64,000 nt of DNA from Paenarthrobacter ilicis. GTDB lineage: Bacteria; Actinomycetota; Actinomycetes; Actinomycetales; Micrococcaceae. The notes under the pieces are model-generated. The model had not been told where the DNA came from. It worked only from the letters and a program-made list of their open reading frames with translations, and did no database searches. The position numbers and the translations under genes are program-made. Shown here one piece after another: positions 2,983-7,772 of the stretch. The stretch spans positions 620,001 through 684,000 of the forward strand of contig NZ_JAFBCD010000001.1 in NCBI RefSeq assembly GCF_016907545.1, read 5' to 3'. The stretch's first letter is position 1; each line of letters begins with the position of its first letter.

Positions 2983-3120
2983 CCGCAGATCCTGAAGGGA
3001 GGAAAGTTATTTTCCAACATTCCGCCGGAAATTAGCCCGTTGTTGGCTTGATGTCTGGTTGGATTGGCCCTACTGGATTGACACGGGAGGCGCCGCCTCC
3101 CACAAACGCTAAGGCAAGCT

Positions 3121-4086
3121 ATGGAGCTCATCGAGGCCGAATACCCCAAACCAGGTCATGTGCTTTTGCACCTGAGTGATCTTCACTTGGTAGGTGGTCC
3201 CGGCACGCTTCATGGCTCCGTGGACAGCGCAACCAGGCTCCAGGAGATCTGCGACCAGATCATCGCGTCCCGGATCAGGCCGGAAGCCATCATTTTTACG
3301 GGCGACCTTGCCGACAAGGGCGAGCTGCACGCCTACGAGCGGCTCCGCGAAATGATCGAACCCGTCTGCGAGGCTCTCGGGACCAAGGCCATCTGGGCCA
3401 TGGGCAACCACGATGACCGGGCTAATTTCAGGGCAGCGTTCAGTGACGCAGCGGAGTCCAGCAAACCCCAGGACCCGGTGGATCGCAGCTACTTTGTGAA
3501 TGGGCTGCGGATCATTACCCTGGACACCACCGTTCCCGGCCACCACTATGGCGAGCTTTCCACCTCACAGCTTGAATGGCTTGCCGGAGAACTTGCCACG
3601 CCCGCGCCGGACGGCACCATCCTGGCACTGCACCACCCGCCCGTCCCATGCGTGCAGGACCTGGCAGTCCTGGTGGAGTTGCGCGGACAAGCCGCACTGG
3701 CCGCCGTCGTACGCAATACGGACGTCCGCACCATCTTGGGCGGACATCTTCATTACTCCACGACGGCGGGCTTCGCCGGCATCCCGGTCTCGGTGGCGTC
3801 AGCCACCTGCTACACCCAGGATCTCGGCGTCGAATCCGGCGGTCAACGTGGCCGTGACGGCGCGCAGTCGTACAACATGATCCACGTCTACGAGCATACG
3901 ATTGTGCACTCCGTGGTCCCCATGTCCGGGGGAGTCACGGTGGGTGAACCGGTGGACGCGGAAGAAGTTCAGCGGAGGCTTACCGAAGCCGGCATCCGGA
4001 TCCCCCACGAGTCCAGGGTGGGGGCGCATACGTCGCCTGGAACGCACACGTCCTCCATGCCCCTTATTTCTCCCAGGGTGCCTTGA
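3121..4086 (+). CDS. cpdA: Metallophosphoesterase, 3',5'-cyclic-AMP phosphodiesterase (CpdA-like)
   Basis: A 321-aa class III phosphodiesterase-type protein. The metal-binding signatures are all present: DLH at residues 20-22, GDLADKGE (G61, D62), GNHDDR (N96, H97) and GGHLHYS near residue 208. Members of this actinobacterial group hydrolyse cAMP and other phosphodiesters with Mn or Fe. The last residues are odd: the stop codon sits inside the first copy of a 19-base direct repeat whose second copy encodes the C-terminus of the convergent Stealth gene. The C-terminal tail after about residue 290 is therefore probably altered by that duplication. Cytosolic, no signal peptide. Confidence 0.85.
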
Positions 4087-4112
4087 TGATTACTTCTCCC
4101 AGGGTGCCTTGA
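4068..4112. repeat. 19-bp direct duplication at a convergent gene junction
   Basis: TTCTCCCAGGGTGCCTTGA occurs at 4068-4086 and again, unchanged, at 4094-4112. The right copy encodes the C-terminal end of the Stealth protein (APWEK) on the minus strand. The left copy supplies the TGA stop of the phosphodiesterase gene. The 26-base period suggests a slippage or short tandem duplication event. Confidence 0.9.
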
Positions 4113-5679
4113 CGGGGAAGTACTTCTCCAGGAAATCGGTGACCAGCTCCGCGCGTTCCTGGCCGTCCACCTCAGGGAAGCTGCCGTCATTGAGGCAGAA
4201 GAAATCCATGTGGCGCTTCGCCAGCAACTTGGGCAGGTAGTGCAGTCCTGCCCACATGGTGGTGTCCACATACCTGACCTTGGCACTGGTCTGGGTGACA
4301 GCACGCCCGGTGAGCAGGGCGTAATAGTGGTAGAACGAGTTGGTCACGGAGATGTTGTCCGCGGCCCGGAAACGGCTGGCTGCTGTCTTGGCGAACTCGG
4401 CCGGGAATTCCTTCTCCATACGGGCCACCACGCTGCGGCGGAGCGGGGCTGCGGTGTGCTCCAGGTGACGGGTGGTGATGCGGCCGAAGCGCTCCCACAG
4501 GAGCTTCCGGTTCACCCGCGCAGCATTCTCAAAACCACTCCGCTCGGCATCGTTTTCACCGAGTCCAATGCGGGTGTCCGCTTCGATGAACTTGGTGATT
4601 CCGCCCGGGGTGAAGAACATGTCCGGTCCCACGGGACGGCCAAAGAACATGTCGTCATTGGAGTACAGGAAGTGCTCCGACAAGCCGTCGATGTGGTGCA
4701 GCTGGCTCTCCACGGCCTGGGAGTTGTGGGTGGGGAGGACCGTGGGATCGGCGAAGAAATCCTCGCTGCGCATGATGGTCACTGCAGGGTGGTCCGCAAG
4801 CCATTCCGGGGCAGGGGAGTCGGTGGCGATGAAGATCCTGCGGATCCAGGGCGCGAACATGTGAACTGAGCGCAACGCGTATTTCAGTTCGTTGATCTGG
4901 CGGAAGCGGGCCTCATGGTCGTCGCCTTCGCCCAGCACGGCATCGGCCTGCTGCGCGCGCCGCCGGGCGATGTACTCGGGATCGCTGCCGTCCACCCAGG
5001 AGAAAACAATGTCCACGTCGAAGTCGATGTCGCTCGCGTGATCGGCAAACATGTTCTCAATGGTGGGCCAGGAGAGTCCGTGGCGCTGCACCGTGCCGCG
5101 CACCGCATCCTGGCGGAGCATGGTGCGGCGGGTCAGGGAGTTCTCCACGGGCAGCTCCAGCTGGTCCCCTTCGAACCTCCAGAGCTCAAGCTGAACGCCC
5201 AGGGCAGGGCCGTACCAAAGGCCGCCGCCTGTTTCCACGCGGGGGCGGTACAAGCGGAAGATGCGGGCTTTCCGGTTGGCGGAGAGGTCGCCGTCGGCCA
5301 CCAGCATGGAAGTCTTCTTCTTGGCGTCCACGGTCATGGAATAGAACGGCTCGTTCTGGAAAGCAGCCACGAGGGCTTCGCGGACTTCCCTGCGTGCCTC
5401 CCAATCAACCGCAATGACAGGCCGCTCGTCGTTTCCACGGACCAGGATGAAATCCACCCCGGCTTTTTCCAGGGCTTCCCGGACCGCAAGGAGATCGGAC
5501 ACCATGGCCTGTTGCGGGGTGAGGTTGCGGTTAACCAGCGCGTACCGCCCGCGGTGACGGACGACGTCCGGCCGGTGTTTCAGGTGTGCAACAACGGCAG
5601 GCGAAACCGCCTCGGCGATGGTGTCTTCTTCTTCTGACGGGCTGCCGTGGTAAATCGGGTCGACCTGTGCTTGTGTGAT
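4090..5679 (-). CDS. Stealth family sugar-phosphate transferase (rare ATC start proposed)
   Basis: Stealth proteins are hexose-1-phosphate transferases that build phosphodiester-linked surface polysaccharides. The conserved regions are visible in order: CR1 around RGRYALVNRNLTP, CR2 with VFSWVDGSDPEY, CR3 with LYSNDDMFFGRPV, and a C-terminal CR4 with MWAGLHYLPKLLAKR. The first ATG (5505) would cut off the CR1 start. The same frame stays open 58 codons further upstream with clear CR1-like sequence but no ATG, GTG or TTG. The best site is ATC at 5679, with GGAG 7 bases before it; ATT at 5655 is a second option. The in-frame upstream stop is the TAG of the HAD gene, 30 bases away, so the two form an operon. 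The product would be 529 aa. Confidence 0.82.
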   Translation of the reverse strand: MTQAQVDPIYHGSPSEEEDTIAEAVSPAVVAHLKHRPDVVRHRGRYALVNRNLTPQQAMVSDLLAVREALEKAGVDFILVRGNDERPVIAVDWEARREVREALVAAFQNEPFYSMTVDAKKKTSMLVADGDLSANRKARIFRLYRPRVETGGGLWYGPALGVQLELWRFEGDQLELPVENSLTRRTMLRQDAVRGTVQRHGLSWPTIENMFADHASDIDFDVDIVFSWVDGSDPEYIARRRAQQADAVLGEGDDHEARFRQINELKYALRSVHMFAPWIRRIFIATDSPAPEWLADHPAVTIMRSEDFFADPTVLPTHNSQAVESQLHHIDGLSEHFLYSNDDMFFGRPVGPDMFFTPGGITKFIEADTRIGLGENDAERSGFENAARVNRKLLWERFGRITTRHLEHTAAPLRRSVVARMEKEFPAEFAKTAASRFRAADNISVTNSFYHYYALLTGRAVTQTSAKVRYVDTTMWAGLHYLPKLLAKRHMDFFCLNDGSFPEVDGQERAELVTDFLEKYFPVKAPWEK

Positions 5680-5709
5680 GGCTGTTCTCCGGAATCGTTC
5701 GGGGTGGAG

Positions 5710-6630
5710 CTAGATGGAAAGTGCTGCGCGCCAGCTGCGGAGGAAGGCGCCGCCGGCGTCGTCATGGATGACATCGTCCGCCAGTTCCAGGTCAGCGGCC
5801 GTCAGGATGGTGTAAGGCTTCACCGGTACGCCGTCTGCGGGCCGGACGTCCACGTGTTTGACGTCGTGTCCGTTGTGGTGAAGCCAGTCTGCCATGGCGT
5901 AGTCGGTTCTGGAATCACCCACTGTGCGCCAGGCCTGCGGGGCGATGGACTGTGCGGCCAGCAGCTCTACGGCACGGCTGGCTCCGAGGTCCTTGCCCAA
6001 GCGCACAGATTCGATGTCCGTGGAAATAATGGTGGGGTCCAGCCGGTAATCCACGGAATCGTCCGACTCGGGCGAGTGGTGGTCCAGGATCGCAGCACTG
6101 AGGCCGTGCTTGCCCATGATGTCCAAAGCATCGGCGTCAAAGAGCTTCTGCTCGGCCAGGTAATCCGCGCTGGAGACTTCAACGTGCTGCTCCACGGAAA
6201 CCATGGCCCGCTTGGTTTCGTCAAAAAACATGTGGGCGGCGTAATCCTCGGCCACCAGCCTGCGGATATCGTCACCGTAGGCCTTTGGTACGGCGAGTTC
6301 GCTGTCCACGTGGATGGGGCCGGGGCCCTCCGATGTGTAGCTGAACCACACTGCGCCTTTCTCGCAGATTGCATGGATCACGGTGTGTTCAGGCATGCCG
6401 GCGGCGATCATGGGTTCCATGACCTGCTCGCTGATGAAGGCATCCGAGCGGCCCGTGTTGAAAACAACGGGAATCCCGGCCGAGGCCAAGGCCACCAGGT
6501 CAGCGATGATTTCCGGCTTGACGTTGCGCGTCACAGGGCTGGCGATGGGGCCGTCAACGTCCAGGAGCAACGCCAATCGAGGCGTGGCCTGGGCGGCATT
6601 CCGGTCAGTACCTTGGAGCGGTTGAGTCAT
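5710..6630 (-). CDS. HAD family hydrolase
   Basis: A 306-aa haloacid-dehalogenase-type hydrolase, probably a sugar-phosphate or nucleotide phosphatase. Motif I is LLDVDGPIAS with nucleophile D24 and acid D26. The threonine motif is NTGRSD near residue 59. Motif III/IV is GDSRTDYAM near residue 258, which supplies the Mg-binding aspartates. An inserted cap domain lies between about residues 85 and 225, as in the Cof-type class. It is the first gene of a two-gene operon with the Stealth transferase, so a role in making or trimming the sugar-phosphate donor is plausible (inference). Confidence 0.8.
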   Translation of the reverse strand: MTQPLQGTDRNAAQATPRLALLLDVDGPIASPVTRNVKPEIIADLVALASAGIPVVFNTGRSDAFISEQVMEPMIAAGMPEHTVIHAICEKGAVWFSYTSEGPGPIHVDSELAVPKAYGDDIRRLVAEDYAAHMFFDETKRAMVSVEQHVEVSSADYLAEQKLFDADALDIMGKHGLSAAILDHHSPESDDSVDYRLDPTIISTDIESVRLGKDLGASRAVELLAAQSIAPQAWRTVGDSRTDYAMADWLHHNGHDVKHVDVRPADGVPVKPYTILTAADLELADDVIHDDAGGAFLRSWRAALSI

Positions 6631-6763
6631 GCCCCTATTCTGTCAGTCCGGAGGCCGTGCTCCACAGCTGTGACGCCCGGGGTAGGTTAGTCACCTTTTG
6701 GCCACAACCTGGCTGTGCTGCCGGTCACAAGTTCCGTTAGGGCCACAACTTCCATAGGCTTGC

Positions 6764-7066
6764 ATGGTGATCTTCAAAGCTGTGGGCGAGGGACGCCCGT
6801 ACCCGGACCATGGATATTCTGCGCCGCGCGACTGGGCTGCCCTGCCGCCACGGCCGGTCCGCCTGGATGACCTGGTGACCACCAAGCGGACCTTGGACCT
6901 GGAAGCTTTGCTGGCCGAGGATTCGACCTTCTTTGGCGATCTCTTCCCCCACGTGGTCCAGTACCAGGGAGTCATGTACCTCGAAGACGGACTCCACCGG
7001 GCCGTCCGTACGGCGCTTCACCAGCGGACCGCCATCCATGCACGCGTATTGGTGATTGATGGCTAG
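6764..7066 (+). CDS. Small conserved actinobacterial protein (ParB-like core)
   Basis: A 100-aa protein starting MVIFKAVGEG. It contains RPVRLDDLVTTKRTLDLEALL and a compact motif VQYQGVMYLEDGLHRAVRTAL that resembles the ParB/sulfiredoxin-type pattern in which an invariant His-Arg pair follows a Gly. Similar small proteins sit beside LytR_C genes in related actinobacteria, and some databases label them as VapB-type antitoxins; I see no toxin partner here. The stop overlaps the start of the next gene by 8 bases, so the two are probably translationally coupled. TAGGCT ends 3 bases before the ATG and no Shine-Dalgarno is visible, so a leaderless transcript is possible. Confidence 0.7.
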   Translation: MVIFKAVGEGRPYPDHGYSAPRDWAALPPRPVRLDDLVTTKRTLDLEALLAEDSTFFGDLFPHVVQYQGVMYLEDGLHRAVRTALHQRTAIHARVLVIDG

Positions 7067-7772
7067 GCAGGCCGGTCCGGAGCAGGACACGGCAGCGCCA
7101 AAAAAACGTAAGCGTCCCAAGGATGTGACGCAGCTTCATGGCCATCACGTGGTCACGGGTCCGGAGCTCAGGGCAACCTTTGCCGAGGATGAGGCGGTGG
7201 AGCGCAGCCGATTCAGGCGGCGCCTCCTCCACGGCATTGTGTTGGTGCTGCTGGTGGGTGTGATTGCGGCCGGAGCAGTGGGTGCCTGGGCTGTCATGAA
7301 CGGCGTCATCAAGGTGCCCACGGCCATTGCCAGCAAGGCCCCCACCAGCCTGTGCCCCACGGCAACGTTTGACTACCTTCCCAATGAGACGGTCAACCTG
7401 AACGTCTTCAATGCGACCTCCCGGAGTGGACTGGCGGGAACCGTAGCTGCCGAGTTCACCGCCCGCGGCTTCAAGGTGGCCTCCGTGGCCAATAGCCAAA
7501 CGGCCTATTCGGGCGTGGGGGCTGTGGTGTCCGGGGCCAAGGGACAAGCGGCGGCCTTCAACATCCAGCGCAACCTCGCCGGCACCGATTACTTCCAGGA
7601 CAACCGCGAGGATGGGTCCGTGGACGTGATCCTCACCCCCGGGTACGAAGGCTTGGTGGAGCCCCAACTGGTGGATCAGACCCCCGGAAAGCTCCTGTGC
7701 CCGCGCGAAGACCAGCGGATTGCGGACAACTCCAAGTGGCCCGTGGTGCCCACCTTGCCGGCGGGGCAGTAG
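7059..7772 (+). CDS. Membrane protein with extracytoplasmic LytR C-terminal domain
   Basis: A 237-aa single-pass protein. A basic cytoplasmic N-terminus (KKRKRPKD) is followed by one membrane segment at about residues 50-75. The extracytoplasmic part contains a LytR_C domain: TVNLNVFNATSRSGLAGTVAAEFTARG is its typical opening, reading from about residue 107. LytR_C domains accompany envelope-assembly proteins of the LCP class, but no catalytic LCP domain is present here. ATG at 7059 was chosen over the TTG at 7056 annotated by frame alone. It overlaps the preceding small gene by 8 bases. Confidence 0.8.
   Translation: MARQAGPEQDTAAPKKRKRPKDVTQLHGHHVVTGPELRATFAEDEAVERSRFRRRLLHGIVLVLLVGVIAAGAVGAWAVMNGVIKVPTAIASKAPTSLCPTATFDYLPNETVNLNVFNATSRSGLAGTVAAEFTARGFKVASVANSQTAYSGVGAVVSGAKGQAAAFNIQRNLAGTDYFQDNREDGSVDVILTPGYEGLVEPQLVDQTPGKLLCPREDQRIADNSKWPVVPTLPAGQ

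Follow-up and report, generated by a model that had tools for sequence, protein, structure and literature searches.

A conserved ATT/ATC start codon in a Stealth (cpsY-type) gene of Paenarthrobacter ilicis and its relatives

The genome of Paenarthrobacter ilicis is a single contig of 3,973,023 bases, and the named records closest to it are those of Paenarthrobacter and Arthrobacter. The stretch analysed here, 64,000 nt in length and referred to as the window, carries a gene for a Stealth/CpsY-like phosphotransferase on the minus strand at 4090-5679 (529 codons plus stop). A profile search with the product of this gene detected the four Stealth regions in order, each above its Pfam cut-off. With residues counted from the ATC codon described below, these are CR1 (residues 220-242; 4954-5022, PF17101), CR2 (residues 258-362; 4594-4908, PF11380), CR3 (residues 408-454; 4318-4458, PF17102) and CR4 (residues 484-529; 4093-4230, PF17103), all on the minus strand. 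Among proteins of solved structure, the nearest in sequence was CpsY of M. tuberculosis, likewise a Stealth phosphotransferase (PDB 8j2n; PMC10668966), which matched residues 220-529 with 514 bits (E 3.4e-153). By analogy with CpsY, the product is probably a sugar-phosphate transferase. The N-terminal stretch of the protein is conserved, yet it lies outside all four CR domains. A first-pass annotation of the window had described conserved CR1 sequence running for 58 codons before the first ATG; the 58 codons and their conservation were confirmed, but the CR1 label was not, because Pfam places CR1 at residues 220-242.

The stop-to-stop frame of the Stealth gene spans 4090-5709 on the minus strand. 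It is closed upstream by a TAG at 5712-5710, 30 nt before an ATC codon at 5677-5679. This TAG is also the stop codon of the gene upstream, a HAD-IIB-like gene on the same strand (5710-6630; NCBIfam HAD-SF-IIB 30.3 bits, below its cut-off of 41.8). None of the ten codons from the TAG to the ATC is ATG, GTG, TTG or CTG, and 58 codons, counted from the ATC, precede the first canonical codon in the frame, an ATG at codon 59 (5503-5505, minus strand, first base 5505) that we judge to be internal. A GGAG Shine-Dalgarno sequence is present at 5690-5687, leaving a gap of 7 nt to the ATC. The first-pass annotation had proposed the ATC as the start of the gene, noting the lack of ATG, GTG or TTG back to the upstream stop and a well-spaced GGAG. 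Both observations held, and the comparison with homologues supported the proposal.

We compared the start codon across 172 loci (L001-L172), comprising 30 same-genus loci (including that of the window), 80 loci from named contigs, two further same-genus loci and 60 loci from the wider family. The 30 same-genus loci were chosen from 194 matching genomes of the genus, leaving out the split-match genomes G053, G062 and G194. The named contigs were 71-94% identical and were mostly titled Arthrobacter, Paenarthrobacter or Pseudarthrobacter; they overlap the other sets in part, with some species or genomes repeated, and the more distant ones belong to sister genera in GTDB coding. ATC or ATT (ATY) was found at the start column in all 32 same-genus loci, all 80 named loci and 37 of the 60 wider-family loci, giving 149 of 172 overall and 112/112 for the near relatives (L001-L112). 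ATG and GTG starts were found only among the 23 remaining wider-family loci and in other families. After identical copies were dropped, 134 distinct ATY loci remained (32 same-genus, 72 named and 30 wider-family), of which 74 have ATT and 60 ATC. The following codon is ACN in 130 of these loci, and in 131 a GGAG precedes the start at a distance of 5-8 nt.

A conserved [VI]Y motif follows the start at a distance of 8-9 codons in 124/134 ATY loci. The same spacing was found in 11 of 14 loci with a canonical start, the exceptions being L157 (15), L163 (15) and L142 (14). Starts in this canonical set were assigned by eye, and L158 and the ambiguous L152, L164 and L165 were left out. Canonical examples such as GTG ACC GAA in L168 and GTG ACC GAC in L205 and L208 have ATY counterparts in ATT ACA GAA and ATT ACC GAC. 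From the alignment, the ATG or GTG of most outgroup loci is thus seen to occupy the position equivalent to the ATY codon. Outside the family, L203 has ATC ACC GAG, with the ATC assigned by eye, whereas L357 and L359, which belong to a different actinobacterial family (f22), seem on visual inspection to have ATG starts. In L167, the ATC was assigned by eye and the start column aligns at ACC. A more divergent Stealth copy, sharing 63-66% identity with that of the window, was observed in genomes of GTDB genus g24 (L169-L172 and L214-L217) and accompanies the closer copy in G289, G305 and G378.

Sequence conservation changes sharply around the codon. Among 39 ungapped relatives, nucleotide identity was 0.28 from -60 to -30, 0.42 from -30 to -12, 0.68 from -12 to 0, reaching 0.92 at the start codon. 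Codons 2-57 showed an excess of third-position differences (398, 264 and 860 at positions 1, 2 and 3, respectively), although they were less constrained than the sequence downstream, with a nonsynonymous to synonymous ratio of 472:584 compared to 1724:6321. No canonical codon lies between the upstream stop and the ATY in 72 of the 134 distinct loci. In six of the loci examined (L088, L130, L132, L139, L140 and L145), the in-frame stop lies just 3-4 codons before the ATY and the interval contains no canonical codon, leaving no room there for another canonical start. The ATC therefore has the features of a conserved non-canonical start: the absence of a canonical start back to the upstream stop, retention in relatives, and a Shine-Dalgarno sequence at start spacing.

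Alternatively, the codon might encode an isoleucine inside a longer protein begun upstream, or inside a product fused to that of the upstream gene through frameshifting or readthrough. In favour of this, a canonical codon is present in the upstream frame in 62/134 loci, 45 of them lacking a Shine-Dalgarno sequence and 17 having a loosely acceptable one. Conservation as ATT or ATC only is also not peculiar to this codon, since 3 of 9 interior isoleucine columns likewise remain ATT/ATC. However, the nearby in-frame stops in the six loci, the collapse of identity upstream of the codon and the canonical outgroup starts, mostly at the same place, all argue against an interior isoleucine, as does the share of ATT, which is 74/133 here (43/64 in a thinned set of these rows, which are related by descent) compared to 467/3018 at interior isoleucine codons. 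The upstream gene of the window was also not found upstream in 40/134 loci, and we consider an interior isoleucine, whether of a longer protein or of a fusion, highly improbable. It is also very unlikely that translation starts downstream, at the codon-59 ATG or another internal canonical codon, with the preceding part conserved for other reasons. The first downstream canonical codon does fall at offset 58 or 60 in 51/134 loci, and a close relative (L028, genome G034) has a TAA at codon 56, just ahead of an ATG three codons later. That stop would do no damage if translation began at the internal ATG; it may mean that the gene is broken, that the sequence is in error or that the shorter product can serve. 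Against a downstream start, no single position fits all loci, the commonest first offsets being 58, 3, 60, 25 and 17. The first canonical codon with a Shine-Dalgarno sequence is scattered from offset 21 to 469 and beyond and is lacking in 29/134 loci, while codons 2-57 evolve as coding sequence. In the window gene, this first codon is at offset 177, and no GGAG, GAGG or AGGA was found at start spacing upstream of the codon-59 ATG. In an AlphaFold model that was poor overall (mean pLDDT 56.1; ~80 for residues 31-60), codon 59 lies within a predicted helix (residues 55-72), past a strand pair with a pLDDT of ~80.

The remaining alternatives accept the position of the start and differ on the meaning of its codon. 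A sequencing or assembly error of ATG has a negligible probability, because all 112 near-relative loci, which come from many separate assemblies, carry the same codon class; with no ATG at that codon in any of them, the homologue check proposed by the first-pass annotation left the ATC standing. The ATY start might also be a neutral relic devoid of regulatory meaning, since weak starts may merely be tolerated and the Shine-Dalgarno sequence is unremarkable. With an unconstrained third base, A and G would be expected there. Instead, the start column is T or C in all 132 rows aligned there, whereas none of 87 fourfold-degenerate columns is T or C in every row (133 sequences, L028 dropped). The ATT share quoted above also sets the start codon apart from elongator-isoleucine codon usage. 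On a tree of the last 470 residues (92 rows, quick LG+G4, canonical starts assigned by eye), ATT and ATC interchanged at least ten times, compared to three interchanges between ATY and a canonical codon. For this tree 62 ATY rows were kept after thinning, L028 (in-frame stop), L158 and L210 were left out, and L165, L206 and the four paralogous copies L169-L172 were given no start group; the latter four group with the ATY loci on the tree. The restriction to T or C, together with an ATT share deviating from that of interior isoleucine, suggests that the codon is not an elongation codon but a start codon kept from becoming ATG. Given the T/C restriction and the counts of interchanges on the tree, a neutral relic is rather unlikely. 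As judged from these alignments, the third base of the start codon is under constraint, and the best reading is that selection has kept ATT/ATC there from an early point in the history of the family, where outgroups have ATG or GTG. Comparison of the loci thereby establishes, at the level of sequence, the start position, its conservation, its equivalence to the starts of most outgroup loci and the constraint on its third base.

A short motif was observed ahead of some of the starts. In eight of the 17 loci with a loosely acceptable Shine-Dalgarno sequence, the upstream canonical codon is an ATG 14 codons before the ATY, inside a recurring TATCATG located ~40 nt upstream of the start (L051, L065, L066, L078, L083, L098, L099 and L111). 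By eye, TATCATG looks like a promoter -10 element, a reading based on its recurrence out of frame in other genera. It is possible that the in-frame ATG of this motif is the start in those eight loci.

We then considered the leader and the upstream gene. The Shine-Dalgarno sequence was weaker in ATY loci than in the 14 canonical loci (median -6.6 compared to -8.7 kcal/mol). Compensation for the weak codon by a strong Shine-Dalgarno sequence was therefore rejected, and apparently nothing offsets it. A homologue of the HAD gene was located upstream in 94/134 ATY loci, with gaps of 29-187 nt. In the other 40 none was found within the flank available, which was ~100 nt in L096 and ~1-1.3 kb in others. 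Translational coupling to the HAD gene was rejected as a general reason for the ATY start, because the codon persists in these 40 loci. Four leaders folded no better than most of their shuffles (z 0.98, 0.42, 1.23 and -0.70), Rfam gave no match in 3000-7200, and no sigma-70-like promoter or terminator was detected in 5600-6900.

To our knowledge, only a handful of bacterial genes keep a start outside ATG, GTG and TTG, namely infC, pcnB, sigR, ccpN and cvfC1. In the open-licence literature, none of the matches listed dealt with a non-canonical start in Arthrobacter or in a gene of the Stealth/cpsY type. The closest actinobacterial parallel is Streptomyces sigR, as described in PMC5472188. Its start is GTC in 32 and GTT in 2 of 34 species and is repressed by IF3; changing GTC to ATG, GTG or TTG overproduces SigR, and the SigR level is altered by the level of IF3 and by IF3 fidelity mutations (PMC5472188). 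AUU and AUC form a third-base mismatch with the initiator tRNA, and IF3 destabilises complexes of this kind, as established for infC and sigR (PMC5472188). Like the Stealth start, that of sigR is a conserved actinobacterial codon other than ATG, GTG or TTG that follows a Shine-Dalgarno sequence and varies only in its third base (PMC5472188). The codons and the genes are different; the ribosome-binding site of sigR is very extensive whereas the Stealth gene has an ordinary GGAG, and IF3 repression was demonstrated for sigR and is inferred for the Stealth gene. The authors saw no evidence of the non-canonical sigR start outside Streptomyces (PMC5472188), whereas the Stealth ATY spans genera.

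The infC gene uses the same codons as the Stealth gene, starting with ATT in E. coli and ATC in Streptomyces (PMC5472188). As a positive control, we examined infC of the genus in 30 loci out of 41 matching genomes, and ATT following AGGAG was found in all of them (L173:1474-1488, plus strand, and L174-L202), so the IF3 circuit is likely present in the genus. In the source genome, infC is located at ~1,530,300, away from the Stealth gene. infC is autoregulatory because it encodes IF3 (PMC5472188), whereas the Stealth gene encodes a phosphotransferase. The likeness to infC raised by the first-pass annotation thus extends to the codon but not to autoregulation, which is ruled out since the Stealth product is not IF3. 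In S. aureus, the conserved non-canonical starts of cvfC1 (AUU) and ccpN (AUA) were found by ribosome profiling and gave ~10% of the output of an AUG reporter, with ccpN reaching as much as 30% in rich medium (PMC13009471). They resemble the present case as conserved non-canonical starts that reduce initiation, and differ in having extended Shine-Dalgarno motifs (PMC13009471), which are absent from the ATY loci. An AUU start of E. coli pcnB appears in a title cited in the same paper (PMC13009471).

Together, these comparisons make it very probable that the ATC at 5679 is a true, selected and weak start of a cpsY-type gene that most likely keeps translation low and dependent on IF3. The methionyl initiator tRNA would read the ATC with a mismatch at the third position, aided by the ordinary GGAG 7 nt upstream. 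IF3 would reject the ATT or ATC start, as it does in infC and Streptomyces sigR, leaving translation low and IF3-dependent. By analogy, the output would be a small fraction of that of an ATG version and proportional to the leakiness of IF3 discrimination. The low initiation efficiency and the IF3 dependence are thus inferred from the known systems. As to why a low level might be favoured, we can offer guesses: the enzyme may be harmful in excess, or its level may be tied to translation capacity.

To gauge how rare such starts are, we scanned 800 kb each of the genome of the window and of G001, ~20% of the genome, which yielded 307 orthologue pairs whose substitutions resembled those of coding sequence. 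In 208 of these pairs, a canonical codon was aligned close to the N-terminus (139 ATG, 58 GTG and 11 TTG in the first genome). Only two pairs had an aligned ATH with a Shine-Dalgarno sequence and lacked an aligned canonical start, and these were the Stealth gene and a GT87-like glycosyltransferase gene. Two further pairs had another near-cognate start that was apparently spurious, and 95 had neither a canonical nor a near-cognate start, making the scan non-exhaustive. A looser rule gave seven matches, five of which were rejected as internal isoleucines lying 16-56 codons inside the alignment. The ATY start of the Stealth gene is more than chance.

The GT87-like gene lies outside the window at C1:319687-320961 (Pfam GT87 27.3 bits compared to a cut-off of 25). 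Its orthologues were collected as 25 loci from 29 matching genomes among 41 searched, and all 25 (L303-L327) start with ATT preceded by AAGGAG; in L303 this ATT is at 1501-1503 on the plus strand, corresponding to C1:319687-319689. The stop codon of the preceding gene, a paralogue judging by sequence matches, ends 1 nt before the ATT (TAA in 11 loci and TGA in 14). ATT was not seen in L328 (38% identical), and L329-L331 were weak matches.

We regard the Stealth start as a new case of a very small known kind, a conserved and selected non-canonical start kept across genera, with a second in the same genome. A rare start is thus maintained through much of a family in the gene of a surface-polymer enzyme, and a second glycan gene of this kind came to light when roughly one-fifth of the genome was scanned. 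Tentatively, the Micrococcaceae may own a small IF3-controlled set of genes marked by conserved ATT/ATC starts and including cpsY and the GT87 gene, both cell-envelope glycan genes, as well as infC, by which envelope polymer synthesis would be tied to the translation machinery. In such a set, the GT87 gene would represent a second arrangement, with its ATT 1 nt past the stop of the upstream gene. Control by IF3-discriminated starts as a wider layer in actinobacteria becomes directly testable. Gene finders limited to ATG, GTG and TTG would misplace ATT and ATC starts, and they are reported to misplace those of sigR and infC (PMC5472188).

At the opposite end of the Stealth gene, a 19-base direct repeat was observed across the convergent 3' ends of two genes, with copies at 4068 and 4094 (4068-4112 in the window). 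The first copy ends a metallophosphoesterase gene (3121-4086, plus strand), and the second lies within the region encoding the C-terminus of the Stealth protein.
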